NCBI GenBank assembly: GCA_031270395.1
Contig: JAISXU010000079.1
Location: forward strand, 1-35,518
DNA length: 35,518 bases
From: Oscillospiraceae bacterium
Lineage (GTDB): Bacteria > Bacillota > Clostridia > Oscillospirales > Oscillospiraceae
Direction: 5' to 3'
Shown here piece after piece: positions 119-35,518 of the stretch (position 1 is its first letter; the number at the start of each line of letters is the position of its first letter). The notes beneath the pieces are model-generated. The model ran no database searches. It was not told the DNA's origin and worked only from the letters and a program-made list of their open reading frames with translations. The translations under genes were made by a program, and so were the position numbers.

Positions 119-177
119 ATTTGTCTTTTTTTGTAAACAAATTGCCGGGATTATAAAAAATGCTTGTCAAATTGGAT

Positions 178-307
178 AAAATATGTTACAGTTTGTCCGG
201 ACGGCTCGAGGGGCATACTATTTCTCAGAAATACACACTTTGTGAGTCGCGCGCGGCGGGAACCAAATTCCCGCAACACGTTTGCAATAGATGCGCCAAT
301 GCAAACG
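178..307 (+). repeat. Diverged copy of the family 1 multi-hairpin element
   Basis: The string CACACTTTGTGAGTCGCGCG near 233 aligns with ACACTCTGCGAGCCGCGCAC in the better copy at 3724. It is preceded by a small hairpin (TATTTC/GAAATA) and followed by GCGGGAA/TTCCCGC (256-262 and 268-274) and CGTTTGCA/TGCAAACG (279-286 and 300-307). The order of stems matches the full copy although the sequence has drifted. It ends 26 bases before the chosen murA start and would lie in the murA leader. Calling it a family member is an inference from short matches plus the same layout. Confidence 0.45.
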
Positions 308-1659: not shown

Positions 1660-3531
1660 TCATTTTTCTTCTTCATCAGCGAGCTCCAGCCAGAGTGAGT
1701 ACATCGCGTCGAGACGGGCGAGCAGCGCAGCTTCGACGCCGCCGAGCTCCATCAGCTTCACATAGTCCGTGGAGGACGCCTCTTTTTCGAGGGTGAGCTC
1801 GCGCAGCTCCGTCTCCGCGCCGGCTATCTCGCGCGCAAGACGCTCCGCGCGTTTTTTTGTTGACGCCCCGGTTTTTGAGGGCGCTTTTTTGCGTCCGACA
1901 CGCTCACGCGACTGTTTTTCACGGTGCTCGCGCTGTTTGCGCCGGTCTTCCGCGTACTCCCCAAACGTCCCGAGAAAATCCGTGAACGCGCCGTCGCGCA
2001 ATTCCCACACGCGCGTGGCGAACATATCGATAAAATATCTGTCGTGCGACACGAAAAGCATTGCGCCCTCGTAGCCGCCGAGCGCATCCTCTATCCATTC
2101 GCGTGACGCGACATCGAGATGGTTTGTCGGTTCGTCGAGAACGAGCAGATTAGTCGGCCCGCACATGAGCGAGCACAGCCGCAGCCGGCTCTGCTCTCCG
2201 CCGGACAAATCGCCGGCGGGCTTGAATACGTCGTCGCCGGAAAATCTAAACGCGCCCAAGCGGTCGCGCGCCGCCTGCGGCGTGAGGCCGGTCTCGTCTA
2301 TCAGCGTTTCGAGCGCGCTCAGGCGCGGATTCGCGAATTCTACCCTCTGCGGCAGATACGCGGGTCTTACAGACGGGCCAAGCCGGCAAAACCCGCTGTC
2401 GGGGCGCTCGCCGCCCATTATTATCCTGATAAGCGTCGATTTGCCCGAGCCGTTGTCGCCGATCAGCGCGACGCGCTGCCCGCCCGTGACGGTTACGCTC
2501 ACGTTCTCAAACAGAGTCCGCCCGTCGTACGACTTTGAAATGTTTTTTGCCGCGATTACCTCGTCGCCCCGGAAATCGAGCTCGCCGAAACGCGCGCCGA
2601 GCTTTTTTTCGCCGCGCGGACGCTCTGTCGTCGCCACGCGCTCTATCCGCTTCTCAATCGCGAACGCCTTGTGCATGAGCCGCTTGTTCCCCGTACCCCA
2701 CTGGCGCAATCTGTCCGCCGCGGCCTGGAGCCGCTTCGCCTCCGCCTGCTCGCGATCGTAGCGCGTCATCAATTCCTCGCGCCGCCTCCGCTTTTCCGCC
2801 GCGTAAAAGGTATAGCCGCCGCCGTAGAATTCCGCCTTGCCCGCGTCTATCTCGATTATACGCGTAACGGCGCTGTCGAGGAAATATCTGTCGTGTGAGA
2901 CGATGAGCGCCGTTCCCTTGAATTTTGACAGGTATTCCTCCAGCCATTCGACGGCGCGCATGTCCAGGTGGTTCGTCGGCTCGTCTAGCAGCAGGACATC
3001 TGTTTTTTCCAGAATCATGCGCGCGAGGTTGACGCGCGTCATCTCGCCGCCCGAGAGCGTGAGAAACGGCTGGGAGCGCTGTTTCTCCGTTATGGACAGT
3101 CCGTTGGCCACGCGCTCCAGCTCAAAATCCGCGTCATACCCGCCCAGACGCTCGAATTCAAAGGCCAGCGCGTCATATTCCGCGAGCGAGTCCGCGCCCG
3201 CCTCCATAGCCCTCTCCAGCGACTCCATCCCGGATTTTATTCCGCGCAGACGCGACTGTCCCGACCGCAGGACATCCTCCGCCGTGAATTCCGGCGGATA
3301 TTTTGGTATCTGCGATATGAGGCCGAGCTTTTTGACCGACGGGACGGCGACGGCGCCCTCGTCGGGTTCGAGTTCGCCCGTTATGAGGCGAAAGAGCGTC
3401 GTCTTGCCCGCGCCATTGCGCCCGAGCAGACCGACGCGCTCGCCCTCGTATATTTCAAAAGAGAGTCCGTCGAGGATGTTGTTCCCTTCTTCAAACGCCT
3501 TTACGACGCCTTGTACGGAAATATCGATCAT
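1660..3531 (-). CDS. ABC-F family ATPase (Uup/YdiF-like)
   Basis: This soluble protein has two ABC ATPase domains and no membrane segment, which defines the ABC-F class. Members act on ribosomes, for example in relieving stalled translation or protecting from antibiotics. Domain 1 has Walker A GRNGAGKTT, signature LSGGEMTRV and Walker B VLLLDEPTNHLD. An arginine- and lysine-rich linker follows. Domain 2 has GDNGSGKST, LSGGEQSRL and LLVLDEPTNHLD. The last 90 residues form a charged, coiled-coil-like tail typical of the Uup/YdiF branch. Length is 623 residues, close to that branch. ATG at 3531 begins directly with MIDISVQGVVKAF, as expected. A possible promoter lies at about 3576-3548 on the minus strand (TTGAAT, 17-base spacer, ATAAAA). 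Whether it confers resistance or is a housekeeping factor cannot be decided from sequence. Confidence 0.9.
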   Translation of the reverse strand: MIDISVQGVVKAFEEGNNILDGLSFEIYEGERVGLLGRNGAGKTTLFRLITGELEPDEGAVAVPSVKKLGLISQIPKYPPEFTAEDVLRSGQSRLRGIKSGMESLERAMEAGADSLAEYDALAFEFERLGGYDADFELERVANGLSITEKQRSQPFLTLSGGEMTRVNLARMILEKTDVLLLDEPTNHLDMRAVEWLEEYLSKFKGTALIVSHDRYFLDSAVTRIIEIDAGKAEFYGGGYTFYAAEKRRRREELMTRYDREQAEAKRLQAAADRLRQWGTGNKRLMHKAFAIEKRIERVATTERPRGEKKLGARFGELDFRGDEVIAAKNISKSYDGRTLFENVSVTVTGGQRVALIGDNGSGKSTLIRIIMGGERPDSGFCRLGPSVRPAYLPQRVEFANPRLSALETLIDETGLTPQAARDRLGAFRFSGDDVFKPAGDLSGGEQSRLRLCSLMCGPTNLLVLDEPTNHLDVASREWIEDALGGYEGAMLFVSHDRYFIDMFATRVWELRDGAFTDFLGTFGEYAEDRRKQREHREKQSRERVGRKKAPSKTGASTKKRAERLAREIAGAETELRELTLEKEASSTDYVKLMELGGVEAALLARLDAMYSLWLELADEEEK

Positions 3532-3583: not shown

Positions 3584-3798
3584 GAATAATTTCGTATGTA
3601 CCCATTTTCGCTCTTACGTCCTTTTCGCTGTGGCGAAAAGAATTTTTGCGAAAGAGTGCGCCCCGTGCGACGGAGCAAAAATTGTTATATCTCCGTCAGT
3701 GTCGGTAATTCATTTACCGACACTGACACTCTGCGAGCCGCGCACGGCGAGATCCATCCCTGCGTAACTCGTTTGTTACGACACAGTCGTAACAAACG
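3584..3798 (+). repeat. Family 1 multi-stem intergenic element, full copy
   Basis: About 215 bases between the divergent ABC-F gene and murC, with several stems in order: CTTTTCGC/GCGAAAAG around TGTG; GACGGAG/CTCCGTC (3669-3675 and 3691-3697); a perfect 14-bp stem GTCAGTGTCGGTAA (3695-3708) with 3714-3727, loop TTCAT; and a perfect 13-bp stem CGTTTGTTACGAC (3770-3782) with 3786-3798, loop ACA. The second and third stems share three bases, so they compete at their junction. A second near-full copy lies at 35344-35518, a 3' part at 33836-33907 and a diverged copy at 178-307. No open frame in it resembles a protein. Confidence 0.85.
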
Positions 3799-3810
3799 AC
3801 ACAATTCGAC

Positions 3811-3839: not shown

Positions 3840-3934
3840 ATCCGCGGGCGGCTGTTATGCGTCGCCGTCCCAATCGGCTTTGCCGTAAGGATAAGACTTT
3901 TCGAGCGGATTAGTATTTGGCGTCGGGGGGATTT

Positions 3935-5329
3935 ATGGCTCTGGGAAATTTTGATTCGTATATCAAATCGGGCGGACGGTGCCATCTCGTCGGAATAGGC
4001 GGCGTGTCGATGTCACCCCTCGCGGAGGTGCTGCGCGGAATCGGGCTGCGCGTCAGCGGCTCCGACGTCTGCGACGGGCCGGCGATCGAAAGACTGCGCT
4101 CGCTCGGGATAGATGTCTCAATAGGACACAGCGCCGCCAATGTCGCCGGAGCGGACTTTGTGATACGCACGGCCGCCGCGCGCGACGACAACGTGGAAAT
4201 CGCGTACGCGCGCGAGACGGGCGTACCCGTGTTTGAGCGCTCGCAGGCGTGGGGATATATAATGAGAGGCTACGCGGATGCCGTCTGCGTGGCCGGCACG
4301 CATGGCAAGACTACAACGACGTCGATGGTGACGCACATCCTCATGGCGGCCGGCGCCGACCCCACCGTCATGATAGGCGGCACTCTGCCGATACTCGGTT
4401 CGGGCTACCGTGTCGGGAGCGGCGACGTCATAGTGCTGGAGTCGTGCGAGTATTACGACTCGTTCCTCAACTTTTCCCCGACCGTAGCCGTCATAGTGAA
4501 CATAGACGCCGACCACCTCGATTATTTCCATAATTTAGAGAACATAAAGGCGTCTTTCCGTAATTTCGCCGCGCTGGTCCCGCCGGACGGCGCCATAGTC
4601 TGCTGCGCGGACGACAAAAACACGATGGACGCGCTGACGCCGCTCGGACGGGAGCTCTTTACCTTTGGAACGTGCGCCGGGGCGAGACTGCGCGGCGTAA
4701 ACACGCGTCTGGACGGAAAAACGTCCTCGACCGACGTACTGCTCGACGGCAAAAACCTGTGCCGCCTGACTCTCCGCGTCCCGGGCGCGCACAACGTACA
4801 CAACGCGCTTGCGGCGACCGCGGCCGCCGTGGCGCTCGGACTGTCCGCGGACGCGATAACGCGCGGACTGCAATCGTTTGAGGGCGCGGGCAGGCGTCTC
4901 GAGTACAAGGGCAGCATAAACGGAGCGGACATATACGATGACTACGCGCATCACCCGAGCGAGCTGCGGGTTGTGCTTGACGCCGTGGAGCGATTCGGGT
5001 ACAAGCGCGTCATACTGGCGTTCCAGCCGCACACGTTCACACGCACAAAGGCGCTGTTCGACGATTTCGTCGCGCAGCTCCGCAGGGCGGACGCGCTCTT
5101 TCTCGCCGAGATATACGCCGCGCGGGAGAAAAACACCGTCGGCATATCGTCAAGGTCGCTTGCGGACAAGATAGACGGCGCCGAATTCTGCCCCGATCTG
5201 GCGCAACTGCGCGGGCGCGTCGCCGAAACCGCGTCGCCGGGCGATGTCATTCTCACGGTCGGCGCCGGCGATATATACAAGGTAGGGGAGTCGCTTGCCG
5301 CCGCAGACGGTGAGGGGATTGGCATTTGA
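3935..5329 (+). CDS. murC: UDP-N-acetylmuramate--L-alanine ligase (MurC)
   Basis: MurC joins L-alanine to UDP-MurNAc with ATP, the first amino-acid addition to the peptidoglycan stem peptide. The N-terminal Rossmann domain begins CHLVGIGGVSMSPLAE. The ATP loop is AGTHGKTTTTSM. The middle domain contains VNIDADHLDYF, and the C-terminal domain contains DDYAHHPSELR and FQPHTFTRTK, all hallmarks of MurC rather than MurD, E or F. Starting at ATG 3935 gives 464 residues, normal for the family, with a G-rich ribosome binding site 4 bases upstream; a TTG at 3917 is an in-frame alternative. The gene has its own promoter and is followed by a 680-base gap rich in hairpins, so it is probably monocistronic. 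Confidence 0.95.
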   Translation: MALGNFDSYIKSGGRCHLVGIGGVSMSPLAEVLRGIGLRVSGSDVCDGPAIERLRSLGIDVSIGHSAANVAGADFVIRTAAARDDNVEIAYARETGVPVFERSQAWGYIMRGYADAVCVAGTHGKTTTTSMVTHILMAAGADPTVMIGGTLPILGSGYRVGSGDVIVLESCEYYDSFLNFSPTVAVIVNIDADHLDYFHNLENIKASFRNFAALVPPDGAIVCCADDKNTMDALTPLGRELFTFGTCAGARLRGVNTRLDGKTSSTDVLLDGKNLCRLTLRVPGAHNVHNALAATAAAVALGLSADAITRGLQSFEGAGRRLEYKGSINGADIYDDYAHHPSELRVVLDAVERFGYKRVILAFQPHTFTRTKALFDDFVAQLRRADALFLAEIYAAREKNTVGISSRSLADKIDGAEFCPDLAQLRGRVAETASPGDVILTVGAGDIYKVGESLAAADGEGIGI

Positions 5330-5354
5330 CACCACGCCGCCGCCGACGGTATTG

Positions 5355-5489
5355 TATCATAAATTGCTTTGCAATTTATGATATAGCGCCATGCGGCGCG
5401 TCCCGCGCCGCGGCTCAAAGTTTTAGCGCGCGCCCGCACAGCGGGCGCATGCGCGTGATATAATATCCGCTCTGCGGATATTATATCAC
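5355..5489. repeat. Cluster of four perfect hairpins including a family 2 repeat
   Basis: Four perfect stems follow murC in 135 bases: 5355-5367 with 5371-5383 (TATCATAAATTGC, loop TTT); GCGGCGCG/CGCGCCGC at 5393-5411; GCGCCCGC/GCGGGCGC at 5430-5448; and a 16-bp stem GTGATATAATATCCGC (5455-5470) with 5474-5489, loop TCT. None has a proper T-tract. The first two stems and the following CGGCTCAAAGTTT recur at 26776-26843. Confidence 0.85.
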
Positions 5490-20387: not shown

Positions 20388-20416
20388 AGTATACACTGAA
20401 TCATTTCGTTTGTCAC
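20388..20416 (-). promoter_or_regulatory. Probable promoter of the two-component operon
   Basis: Read on the minus strand, GTGACA (20416-20411) and TATACT (20393-20388) are separated by 17 bases. Transcription would begin near 20381, about 80 bases before the regulator start. The -35 lies inside the 27-bp box shared with the MATE leader. Confidence 0.6.
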
Positions 20417-20429
20417 GGCTTGAGGCGTA
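20403..20429 (-). promoter_or_regulatory. 27-bp box shared with the MATE leader
   Basis: The minus-strand reading of 20403-20429 is identical over 27 bases to plus-strand 33881-33907. It begins TACGCCTCAAGCC and continues GTGACAAACGAAAT. Here it covers the -35 and part of the spacer of the two-component promoter. Outside these 27 bases the two loci differ. It may be a shared operator or a fragment of a family 1 repeat. Confidence 0.6.
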
Positions 20430-20439
20430 TCGTCCTCAC

Positions 20440-20590
20440 GCGCTACGCTTCGTCCGCACGGACTGCGTTCCAATCCCCGCGTCCAAACCCGAAACGAAGC
20501 CGGGGCGCGTTTCCCCGTCCTGTAGGGGCGACCGCCCCTACAGGACGGGGAAACGCGCCATATTTCCGCAGAAACGCGTTGTTTCTTGGG
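20440..20590. repeat. Family 4 repeat with a perfect 27-bp-stem palindrome
   Basis: Bases 20504-20530 are the exact reverse complement of 20533-20559, separated by only AC. The arms contain GTTTCCCCGTCCTG and TAGGGGCG. The stretch before it (CGTCCAAACCCGAA near 20481, then GCCGGGGCG) matches the family 4 block at 5.5-5.7 kb. The 750 bases between the regulator and the SLH gene contain no gene; the small frames here are translated repeat. Confidence 0.8.
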
Positions 20591-25467: not shown

Positions 25468-25525
25468 TCCGGAGGCTGACACAGCGAAGCACGCCGGGGG
25501 CTGTTTCCCCGGCGTGCTTCGCAAA

Positions 25526-25570
25526 AAAACGGCTGTGACGTTCCAATATATAGGTCGTCACAGCCGTTTT
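25526..25570. terminator. Bidirectional intrinsic terminator after the SLH gene
   Basis: A perfect 15-bp stem AAAACGGCTGTGACG (25526-25540) pairs with 25556-25570, loop of 15 bases. It is preceded by seven As and followed by TTTTCGTT. It should end the SLH transcript and also block transcripts entering from the LysR side. Confidence 0.75.
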
Positions 25571-25572
25571 CG

Positions 25573-25602
25573 TTGACACCTGCAAGTATGGCGTGATAAA
25601 AT
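25573..25602 (+). promoter_or_regulatory. Strong-looking promoter inside family 3 repeat, copy 1
   Basis: A perfect TTGACA (25573-25578), an 18-base spacer and TAAAAT (25597-25602) with an extended -10 TGA. It points rightward, into the 3' end of the oppositely oriented lysR gene, so any transcript would be antisense to lysR. Confidence 0.55.
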
Positions 25603-25624
25603 AGCGCCGCCGATACTTCAATCT

Positions 25625-26715: not shown

Positions 26716-26775
26716 ACAATATTTTGTTGTGGCTTGCACAATTTTTTGACCATTTTCAAAGGACCTGCGCCATTA

Positions 26776-26843
26776 TATAATAAGTTGCTTTGCAATTTAC
26801 TATATAGCGCCATGCGGCGCGTCCCGCGCCGCGGCTCAAAGTT
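26776..26843. repeat. Family 2 hairpin repeat, copy 2
   Basis: Matches 5355-5423. The first stem here has GU/AC differences (TATAATAAGTTGC with GCAATTTACTATA), while the second, GCGGCGCG/CGCGCCGC, is identical. It lies in the lysR-reductase gap, 42 bases before the reductase start. A TATAAT at 26776 with TTTTCA 17 bases upstream (26753-26758) could serve the reductase operon. Confidence 0.7.
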
Positions 26844-26884
26844 TCAATTCATGATTACAGCACAAGGAACGGAGCGGTCGAAGT

Positions 26885-33684: not shown

Positions 33685-33741
33685 CAGGCGTACGATGCGA
33701 AGCACGCCGGGGGCTGTTTCCCCGGCGTGCTTCGCAACAAA

Positions 33742-33786
33742 AAAACGGCTGTGATGTTCCAATATATGGACCGTCACAGCCGTTTT
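33742..33786. terminator. Bidirectional intrinsic terminator of the ABC operon
   Basis: AAAACGGCTGTGA (33742-33754) pairs with TCACAGCCGTTTT (33774-33786), extended by a T-G wobble and a G-C pair. It has an A-tract before and TTTTCGTT after. Confidence 0.72.
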
Positions 33787-33788
33787 CG

Positions 33789-33818
33789 TTGACACCTGCA
33801 AGTATGGCGTGATAAAAT
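33789..33818 (+). promoter_or_regulatory. Strong-looking promoter upstream of the MATE gene
   Basis: TTGACA (33789-33794), an 18-base spacer, then TAAAAT (33813-33818) with extended TGA. It points at the MATE gene and would give a leader of about 110 bases containing the family 1 fragment. Confidence 0.62.
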
Positions 33819-33835
33819 AGCGCCGCCGATACTTC

Positions 33836-33907
33836 TTGCGAGCCGCGCACGGCGAGATCCAACCCTCGTAACTCGTTTGTTACGCCTCAAGCCGTGACAA
33901 ACGAAAT
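33836..33907 (+). repeat. 3' fragment of a family 1 element
   Basis: Matches the 3' end of the copy at 3584-3798, from GCGAGCCGCGCACGGCGAGA through CGTTTGTTACG. Its closing stem is CGTTTGTTACG (33874-33884) with CGTGACAAACG (33893-33903), keeping pairing through one T-G wobble. Its last 27 bases equal the box at 20403-20429 inverted. Confidence 0.75.
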
Positions 33908-33934
33908 TATACAAACTATGGAGCACCAAAGACA

Positions 33935-35326
33935 TTGCTTAAAGACATACTAAAGCAGCCGCGCGGGTTTTATCGCGGCGTGTTCTCGCTCATGGCGCCG
34001 ATGATACTGCAAAACGTTATCTCGCAGTCCGTCGCGCTGGCGGATGCGTTCATGGTCGGGCTGACGGGTGAGGAGAGTCTGGCGGCCGTGACGTTGGCGA
34101 ACACGCCCTTTTTTGTGCTGATGGTGCTGACGTTTGGCATACAGAGCGGCGTGGGCATACTCATAGCCCAATACTGGGGACGGCAGAACCGGGGGGCGAT
34201 AAGCCGCGTGGTGGGCGTTGGGGTGTACGTCGCGCTTGCCGCGTCCGCCGCCGTCGCCGCGCTGATGATCGTCATGCCGGAAAAAATACTTGCATTGGTC
34301 ACGGATGAGGCGGGACTTGTGGATACCGCGGTCAGGTACGCCCGGATCGTGGGAGTATCCCAGGTGTTCGCGTCGGTCACGCAGATATATATGGCGGCTC
34401 AGCGGAGCTGTGAGAACCCTAAGCTCGGCGTCATCGTGCTCGGTTCCTCCTCGCTTATCAATATTTTCGGGAACTGGCTGCTCATATTCGGCAGCGCGAC
34501 GCTGGGAGTGGCGCCTATGGGCGTCGTCGGCGCGGCGGTGGCCACGCTGATCGCAAGGATCGTGGAGTTTACGATAGCCGTCGTGTACGCCGTCGTAAAC
34601 CGGCATTTGAGGCTCGATTGGAGACTGTTTTTCAGGCCGGGCATGCTCATAGTGAAGGATTTTGTGAAATACTCGCTGCCCGTCGTCATAAACGAGGCGC
34701 TGTGGGGCGTATCGCTCATGCTGTATCCCGTCATACTGGGGCATATGCGCTCGGCGACGTCATTACTGGCGGCATATAACATAGCGGGCAGCATCGAAAA
34801 GCTCTTCACCGTCGCCGTGTTCGCGACAGGCAGCGCCGTCGCGGTCATAATAGGCAAGGAGTTGGGCGCGGGAAACGTAAAAGAGGTGTACTCAAAAGCA
34901 AAATCGCTGGCGGCGATGGGCTTGCTGCTCGGACTCGGCGCCGGAGTTCTGCTGCTGATCGCCACTCTCACGGTCATGGAACCGCTGGTGTACCCGCTGT
35001 TCGGCATGTCGCCCGACGCCGTCGGCGCGGCGAGAGCTATGCTGCTGATTCTAGCGGCGGTGGTACCGCTGCGCAACTGCGGCTTTGCCGTGGGTATAGG
35101 CGTATTGCGCGGAGGCGGCGACGTCAGGGCGGTCATGCTTATAGACTGCCTCTCGCTGTATGTGCTGGCGCTGCCGATGGCGGCCGTGTCCGGACTCGTG
35201 CTCGGCGCGGGTATTGCCGTGGTCTATTCGAGCGTGCTCCTTGAGGAGGTCGCGAAGACGGGTATACTGCTCGCGAGGTTGAAATCGCGGAAATGGATTA
35301 AAAACGTGACGCGCGACACGGTTTGA
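33935..35326 (+). CDS. MATE family multidrug/metabolite exporter
   Basis: A 463-residue membrane antiporter with twelve hydrophobic segments in two repeated halves, the MATE plan. Recognisable motifs are the N-terminal FSLMAPMILQNVISQSVALADAFMVG (split here in two parts: LMAPMILQNVISQSV and ADAFMVGLTGEESLAAV), GVGILIAQYWG in the first half, and YNIAGSIEKLF with VIIGKELGAGNVKE in the second. MATE proteins export cationic compounds with Na+ or H+. The start TTG 33935 has GGAG 11 bases upstream. Its own promoter in the family 3 repeat separates it from the importer operon. A role in exporting the product of the neighbouring reductase is possible but unsupported. Confidence 0.92.
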   Translation: MLKDILKQPRGFYRGVFSLMAPMILQNVISQSVALADAFMVGLTGEESLAAVTLANTPFFVLMVLTFGIQSGVGILIAQYWGRQNRGAISRVVGVGVYVALAASAAVAALMIVMPEKILALVTDEAGLVDTAVRYARIVGVSQVFASVTQIYMAAQRSCENPKLGVIVLGSSSLINIFGNWLLIFGSATLGVAPMGVVGAAVATLIARIVEFTIAVVYAVVNRHLRLDWRLFFRPGMLIVKDFVKYSLPVVINEALWGVSLMLYPVILGHMRSATSLLAAYNIAGSIEKLFTVAVFATGSAVAVIIGKELGAGNVKEVYSKAKSLAAMGLLLGLGAGVLLLIATLTVMEPLVYPLFGMSPDAVGAARAMLLILAAVVPLRNCGFAVGIGVLRGGGDVRAVMLIDCLSLYVLALPMAAVSGLVLGAGIAVVYSSVLLEEVAKTGILLARLKSRKWIKNVTRDTV

Positions 35327-35343
35327 GTATTTTCACCACATGA

Positions 35344-35518
35344 GAATAATTTCGTTTGCACACGTATTCGCTCTTTCGTCCTTTTCGCCTGTCCGCCGAC
35401 AGGCGGGCTGTGGCGAAAAGAATTTTTGCGAAGGAGTGCGCCCCGTGCGACGGAGCAAAAATTGTTATATCTCCGTCAGTAGATGGAATTCATTTCCATC
35501 TACTGACACTCTGCGAGC
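35344..35518 (+). repeat. Family 1 multi-stem element cut by the window end
   Basis: Starts 18 bases after the MATE stop and aligns with 3584-3740 over its whole visible length. It differs by an extra 20-base hairpin (CGCCTGTC/GACAGGCG) set inside the loop of the CTTTTCGC/GCGAAAAG stem. The third stem is GTCAGTAGATGGAA (35475-35488) with 35494-35507, again 14 perfect pairs and loop TTCAT, but with five positions changed on both arms relative to the first copy. Confidence 0.85.

Follow-up and report, generated by a model that had tools for sequence, protein, structure and literature searches.

Bacterial MITEs are usually regarded as passive folded leftovers. Several mobile intergenic repeats that fold are already known, among them BOX, RUP, YPAL and CIR (PMC3049150, PMC2229807, PMC10969869). 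YPAL (RU-2) of Yersinia is about 168 bp long, with target duplications that vary from 3 to 26 bp and targets that span or adjoin dyad symmetry (PMC2229807). For IS1272, a member of the IS1182 family, stem-loop targets and their loss have been published, and duplication of the whole stem-loop has been proposed as an alternative pathway (PMC5678879, PMC4923244).

Here we describe a gene-less element of about 224 bp, bounded by terminal inverted repeats (TIRs) and composed of five hairpins in a row on the plus strand, in a 35,518-nucleotide stretch of DNA from an Oscillospiraceae bacterium (the whole stretch is called the window below). Its copies are numerous and scattered through the genome; they have TIRs and target duplications, one site is apparently empty in a sister species, and the fold covaries across genera. 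It is best read as an unusually structured MITE-like intergenic repeat, to be compared with BOX and YPAL, and we consider it quite probable that it is mobile, non-autonomous and selected for its structure.

Anatomy of the element in the window

The copies and fragments in the window, and the parts of copy 1, are as follows.

3584-3807, plus strand: full element, copy 1 (genome search, covariance-model match of 158 bits), in the intergenic site between two divergent genes, one for an ABC-F type ATPase (complement 1660-3531) and one for a murC-like Mur ligase (3917-5329; Pfam)
3584-3598, plus strand: 5' TIR GAATAATTTCGTATG, consensus GAATNATTTCGTTTG (copy alignment, TIR scan, TSD analysis)
3621-3640, plus strand: hairpin H1, CTTTTCGC..GCGAAAAG (alignment; sequence nearly invariant)
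3641-3683, plus strand: hairpin H2, stem AATTTTTGC/GCAAAAATT (two-sided changes in 5 of 9 pairs)
3695-3727, plus strand: hairpin H3, variable 14-bp stem, loop TTCAT (two-sided changes, phylogeny-aware test)
3737-3748, plus strand: small hairpin H4, GCCG CGCA CGGC, in other copies GCGC CGCA GCGC (2 pairs significant)
3769-3799, plus strand: terminal hairpin H5, TCGTTTGTTACGAC/GTCGTAACAAACGA (also occurs alone as 47-bp palindromes)
3793-3807, plus strand: 3' TIR, consensus CAAACGAAATNATTC (overlaps the 3' arm of H5)
35344-35518, plus strand: copy 2, ended by the contig end at 35518, with an extra hairpin in the H1 loop
35475-35507, plus strand: H3 of copy 2, GTAGATG type
33837-33912, plus strand: 3' fragment (H4, H5, 3' TIR) upstream of the MatE gene 33935-35326 (blastn, 90% identity; Pfam)
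20398-20429, plus strand: end fragment, TIR GAATCATTTCGTTTG and half of the terminal hairpin
120-281, plus strand: weak, doubtful diverged 3' remnant before or within the start of a murA-like (EPSP synthase family) frame, 160-1626 (covariance model, 19 bits only; Pfam)

In the copy alignment the order is 5' TIR, H1, H2, H3, ACTYTGCG, H4 (CCG/CGG or CGC/GCG) and H5. Some copies carry insertions in the H1 loop or within H2, where the insertions are apical and the inner motif TGCGYYCCGTG is conserved. The 3' TIR is the 3' arm of H5, and the 5' TIR could alternatively pair with that arm. The first bases of the 5' TIR (3584-3594, GAATCATTTCG) resemble the H3 tip (GAATTCATTTCC, 3706-3716) save for one inserted base, a likeness that may be due to chance.

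A first-pass annotation of the window had pointed to a stem compensated between copies 1 and 2, and closer analysis bears this out. The H3 arms are GTCAGTGTCGGTAA/TTACCGACACTGAC in copy 1 (3695-3727) and GTCAGTAGATGGAA/TTCCATCTACTGAC in copy 2 (35475-35507); each has 14 of 14 pairs and the loop TTCAT, and they differ exactly at stem positions 7, 8, 9, 10 and 12, with the opposite arm matched. Folding-energy z scores are -7.3 and -7.6 for the two copies, and 0 of 200 shuffles folded as well. The same annotation called the copies nearly identical outside this stem, which is incorrect: their first 46 nt are only 87% identical, and copy 2 has an extra hairpin of about 20 nt in the H1 loop. H4 and H5 are missing from copy 2 because the contig end cuts it. 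Nor is drift confined to one stem; H2, H4 and H5 also vary with pairing kept, and among the copies of one genome the variants act like interchangeable cassettes. Copy 1, thought to end at 3798, extends to 3807. A diverged copy and a 3' fragment had been placed in the leaders of two genes; the 3' fragment before the MATE gene (33837-33912, 90% identity) holds up, and the murA copy is weak (19 bits, overlapping the first codons of the open frame). Absence from Rfam is supported: its 4227 families gave 0 matches in the window at the gathering threshold, and when six loci were compared at the looser limit of E<=1, no family matched over the element. The earlier interpretation is thus only partly supported; the element is a mobile repeat, which had not been stated.

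The window contains other repeats as well. Long direct repeats at 25473-25619 and 33686-33835 are 89-96% identical and comprise two hairpins, one of them a terminator, and a stretch resembling a promoter. A second dispersed repeat of 73 bp with a hairpin lies at 5351-5423 and 26772-26844, its pairing broken in one copy, and a perfect 27-bp palindrome, GGCGCGTTTCCCCGTCCTGTAGGGGCG, with a 2-nt spacer lies at 20504-20559.

Distribution, insertion and target duplication

The genome to which the window belongs spans 2.17 Mb in 95 contigs; a DNA search of it returned dozens of matching places, and many of the contigs break inside the repeat. With a covariance model (R1) built on the core, about 45-55 places stood above noise. 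The element is also present in two other genomes of the same genus; the genome's close relatives are termite-gut MAGs. A scan of the family gave strong matches (E below 1e-10) in Papillibacter cinnamivorans DSM 12816, Sporobacter termitidis, Flavonifractor/Pseudoflavonifractor and further termite-gut MAGs, and in all, relatives of the element are present in six or more additional genera and in two other families of this order. With a second model limited to H3-H4 (R2), matches were obtained in further Oscillospirales families, most of them in f2 and f26; the rest of the class sample gave only one weak match. Covariance-model matches scoring less than about 35 bits were set aside, since the antisense strand of a true copy can reach that score; the tally of 17 genera is therefore an upper bound. 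The relatives are spread over an order whose members are mostly gut bacteria. At the sensitivity of the searches, phages, plasmids and viral contigs gave no element.

Two further groups differ in composition. One genome of family f2 (G519; L318, L321, L324, L329) holds at least 12 near-identical copies with H3, H4 and H5 and other H1/H2. At seven loci of family f26 (L317, L320, L323, L326, L347, L348, L361) a long multi-stem domain, CGCTRTCGGCGCAGC..GCGTGAGGGTAACG..GCCGAYGCAGGA..GTTCGGGGTGTCCCCGTGAAGTG, is conserved directly after the same H3 hairpin, with several copies per genome and no Rfam match; this is possibly another new structured RNA.

Within the window's genus, 6 of the 25 copies with both ends have exact 5-bp target duplications just outside the TIRs, compared to 0.08 expected (0.3% per copy), and no other duplication length stands out. 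At the ABC-F/murC site the window's genome has the insertion, the sister genome G002 has a 5'-deleted copy (the 3' part) and a further sister species, G001, has none. The site therefore seems to be filled in two species and empty in the third, the empty call resting on one diverged G001 intergenic region. The partial copy at this site carries G002's own H3 type, so exchange between copies contributes within a genome. As in MITEs, the element is shorter than 500 bp and without a gene (no recurrent ORF or neighbouring transposase gene), and has both TIRs (GAATNATTTCGTTTG..CAAACGAAATNATTC) and target duplications. We found no recurring transposase gene adjoining the copies, and no transposase with exactly these ends in the window's genome or in Papillibacter. 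Two candidate partners were discarded: a long TIR pair on contig C27 of genome G000 proved to be two separate palindromes around an ABC transporter gene, and an IS1182 element of G002 has different ends.

G002 contains more than 400 TIR matches, and 47-bp solo palindromes (L237 and L233-L236) consist of the TIR and H5 only. In another locus (L232, G002 C1:2307-2590) a tRNA gene, Trp-like by eye, lies between two inverted, TIR-bounded 3' halves of the element.

In Papillibacter the TIR is TCAGNCTGTCGAAAAA. Here 17 of 24 copies lie directly between two direct copies of a 22-47 bp hairpin whose sequence differs at every site, and alignment scores of the flanking hairpins are 16-45, compared to a 99% control quantile of 13. 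Sequence following the right hairpin copy is T-rich (p 0.007), and that preceding the left one is A-rich (p 0.0006). The pattern resembles that of a single terminator hairpin, active in both directions, which was doubled so as to enclose the insert. The remaining seven copies do not show this duplication, and Papillibacter has no known empty site; no solo TIR hairpins were found in 400 kb of Papillibacter. IS1182-family transposase loci (PF13751) in the same bacterial family also end in TCAGNCTGTCGAAAAA and mostly adjoin strong hairpins. One of them, L306 in another Oscillospiraceae genome, has an identical 29-bp hairpin at both ends (near 399 and at the opposite end), which looks like a stem-loop target duplication by an autonomous element; other IS1182-family loci have different hairpins at the two ends. 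Papillibacter has no PF13751 gene, so there we infer the mobilising enzyme.

The most likely sequence of events in Papillibacter is that a DDE transposase acting in trans inserts the element at the foot of terminator stem-loops, and that gap repair would then duplicate the whole stem-loop. Insertion at gene ends would leave a stem-loop with a T-tract downstream, so that transcription would still stop and the element would be harmless, while becoming part of an untranslated RNA. In the window's genus a different transposase would leave the 5-bp duplications. The TIRs differ between genera, and therefore one mobilising enzyme cannot explain all.

Constraint on the fold and its possible causes

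Among the 34 sequences of alignment A1, 98.1% of cells pair compared to 81% in shuffles, the covariation is 0.425 compared to 0.120, and 12 of the 14 H3 pairs show two-sided changes. When 27 sequences drawn from two families and several genera were compared, two-sided changes were seen at 13 of 14 H3 pairs, and the H3 tip GGAAUUCAYUUCC is unchanged across genera. We then applied a phylogeny-aware test of our own making, after R-scape (FastTree, Fitch substitutions, simulated null, G-test with APC). Eleven of 36 pairs were significant at E<0.05 (9 in H3, 2 in H4) and none outside the structure. The fold is therefore constrained, with pairs covarying beyond phylogeny, as the first-pass annotation had supposed from two copies.

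Departures from Watson-Crick pairing were unequal: 42 tree events led to G-U and 21 to A-C (share expected from unpaired sites 0.52, p=0.011), and a simple event count gave 44:18 (p=0.0006). The covariation and G-U tests both assume a tree, which is only approximate because copies recombine; hairpin versions reassort among the copies of one genome. Symmetric palindrome repair would not be expected to give an excess of G-U over A-C, which points to selection on one folded single strand, the plus strand, as RNA or single-stranded DNA, the asymmetry fitting both alike. We propose that this fold, most likely as RNA and possibly as single-stranded DNA, would be kept by selection because recognition of the plus strand would depend on the invariant H3 tip, a putative recognition site for a protein. 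The whole-stem differences between the window copies would arise because copies in one genome exchange hairpin versions.

One possibility is that the element is a true non-coding RNA family, with a function in trans or in cis, that is merely carried between transposon-like ends, its mobility being secondary. We regard this as tenable but doubtful. The core H1-H4 is conserved despite different ends across genera and in low-copy lineages, the tip and linker motifs are conserved, and the same H3 is joined to another long domain in a third family; the G-U excess is also as expected. Several Flavonifractor-type genomes have one copy next to murG (gene names read from the sequence by eye), and these few, partly fixed copies fit a resident function equally well. 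However, there is no consistent neighbouring gene or promoter, neighbouring genes in the window's own genus lie in all orientations relative to the element, as if at random, and both the number of copies and the target duplications are typical of a mobile element. In other genera, the gene at the element's 3' end points towards it in 32 of 36 cases. That the element has an RNA function of its own is for us a tentative suggestion. Equally speculative is a broader view of an Oscillospirales-wide RNA class, with an invariant tip on a freely rewritten stem, as a mobile module adopted by several unrelated transposon ends, some inserting at and duplicating whole terminator stem-loops, where the fold would act as RNA in mobility or in the host.

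Alternatively, selection on the plus strand may act not on RNA but on single-stranded DNA, in the course of transposition at the replication fork. G-T is tolerated in DNA too, and Papillibacter copies on the same contig are all co-oriented (42 of 42 pairs) despite a coding bias of only 0.56-0.59 on the three contigs with most copies and a location mostly at convergent gene pairs (15 of 24). This orientation is probably linked to replication. Against the explanation, contig GC skew gave no consistent leading/lagging assignment, target duplications imply a double-strand DDE reaction, and strand concordance of same-contig copies is weaker in the window's own genome (13:4). We consider this explanation rather unlikely.

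Pairing could also be kept by DNA-level processes alone, such as template switching in palindromes and gene conversion, with no selection on the fold. Whole stems are swapped and cassettes reassort, the partial copy at the murC site has the local species' H3 type, and even a solo palindrome, L237, has its TIR change matched on the other arm. Such processes treat the strands alike and predict equal G-U and A-C, not 42:21; moreover, conservation across genera extends to unpaired motifs and to the tip, and the hairpin order is kept across families. These data weaken the explanation to the point of making it improbable. Finally, an ordinary tandem of transcription terminators is very improbable: hairpins lie at gene ends and many copies outside the own genus adjoin stop codons, but no T-tract follows H1-H5, the element covaries as a unit with fixed order and loops, and it also occurs upstream of genes (the window copy lies between divergent genes).

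Comparison with known systems

Our literature search returned no work on these hosts and none describing MITEs that duplicate terminator hairpins. The fold described here is conserved strand-specifically across genera and families while ends and sequence change, so that the purpose of a mobile repeat's structure can be put to the test in hosts that grow in culture (Papillibacter, Sporobacter, Flavonifractor). In the duplicated terminator hairpins we seem to see naturally occurring examples of stem-loop duplication, hitherto only a hypothetical pathway for IS1182-type transposition.

With the IS1182 family, for example IS1272 (PMC5678879, PMC4923244), the element shares stem-loop targets, often terminators, and the ends of the Papillibacter copies match those of IS1182-type elements of the same bacterial family. 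In contrast to IS1272 it has no transposase gene, and can therefore be an IS1182 passenger but not a member of that family; IS1272 deletes the stem-loop, whereas here it is apparently duplicated (hypothetical pathway b, PMC5678879).

BOX, RUP and SPRITE of pneumococcus (PMC3049150) are likewise dispersed, folded, TIR-bearing intergenic repeats, and BOX is modular. In BOX and RUP the fold pairs one TIR with the other, and these repeats occur almost exclusively in S. pneumoniae and S. mitis (PMC3049150), whereas the present element is a linear hairpin row that covaries across genera and families. CIR of Caulobacter (PMC2229807) also has an RNA fold conserved between genera and an exposed conserved loop motif, but it has two arms only, another sequence and a host in another phylum.

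YPAL/RU-2 (reviewed in PMC2229807), compared by description only, is similarly folded, gene-less and flanked by target duplications. It differs in sequence and host, the review describes no cross-genus covarying core, and the Papillibacter duplications are whole hairpins of 22-47 bp. What is new here is the covarying core shared across genera, its association with different ends and the whole-hairpin duplications.
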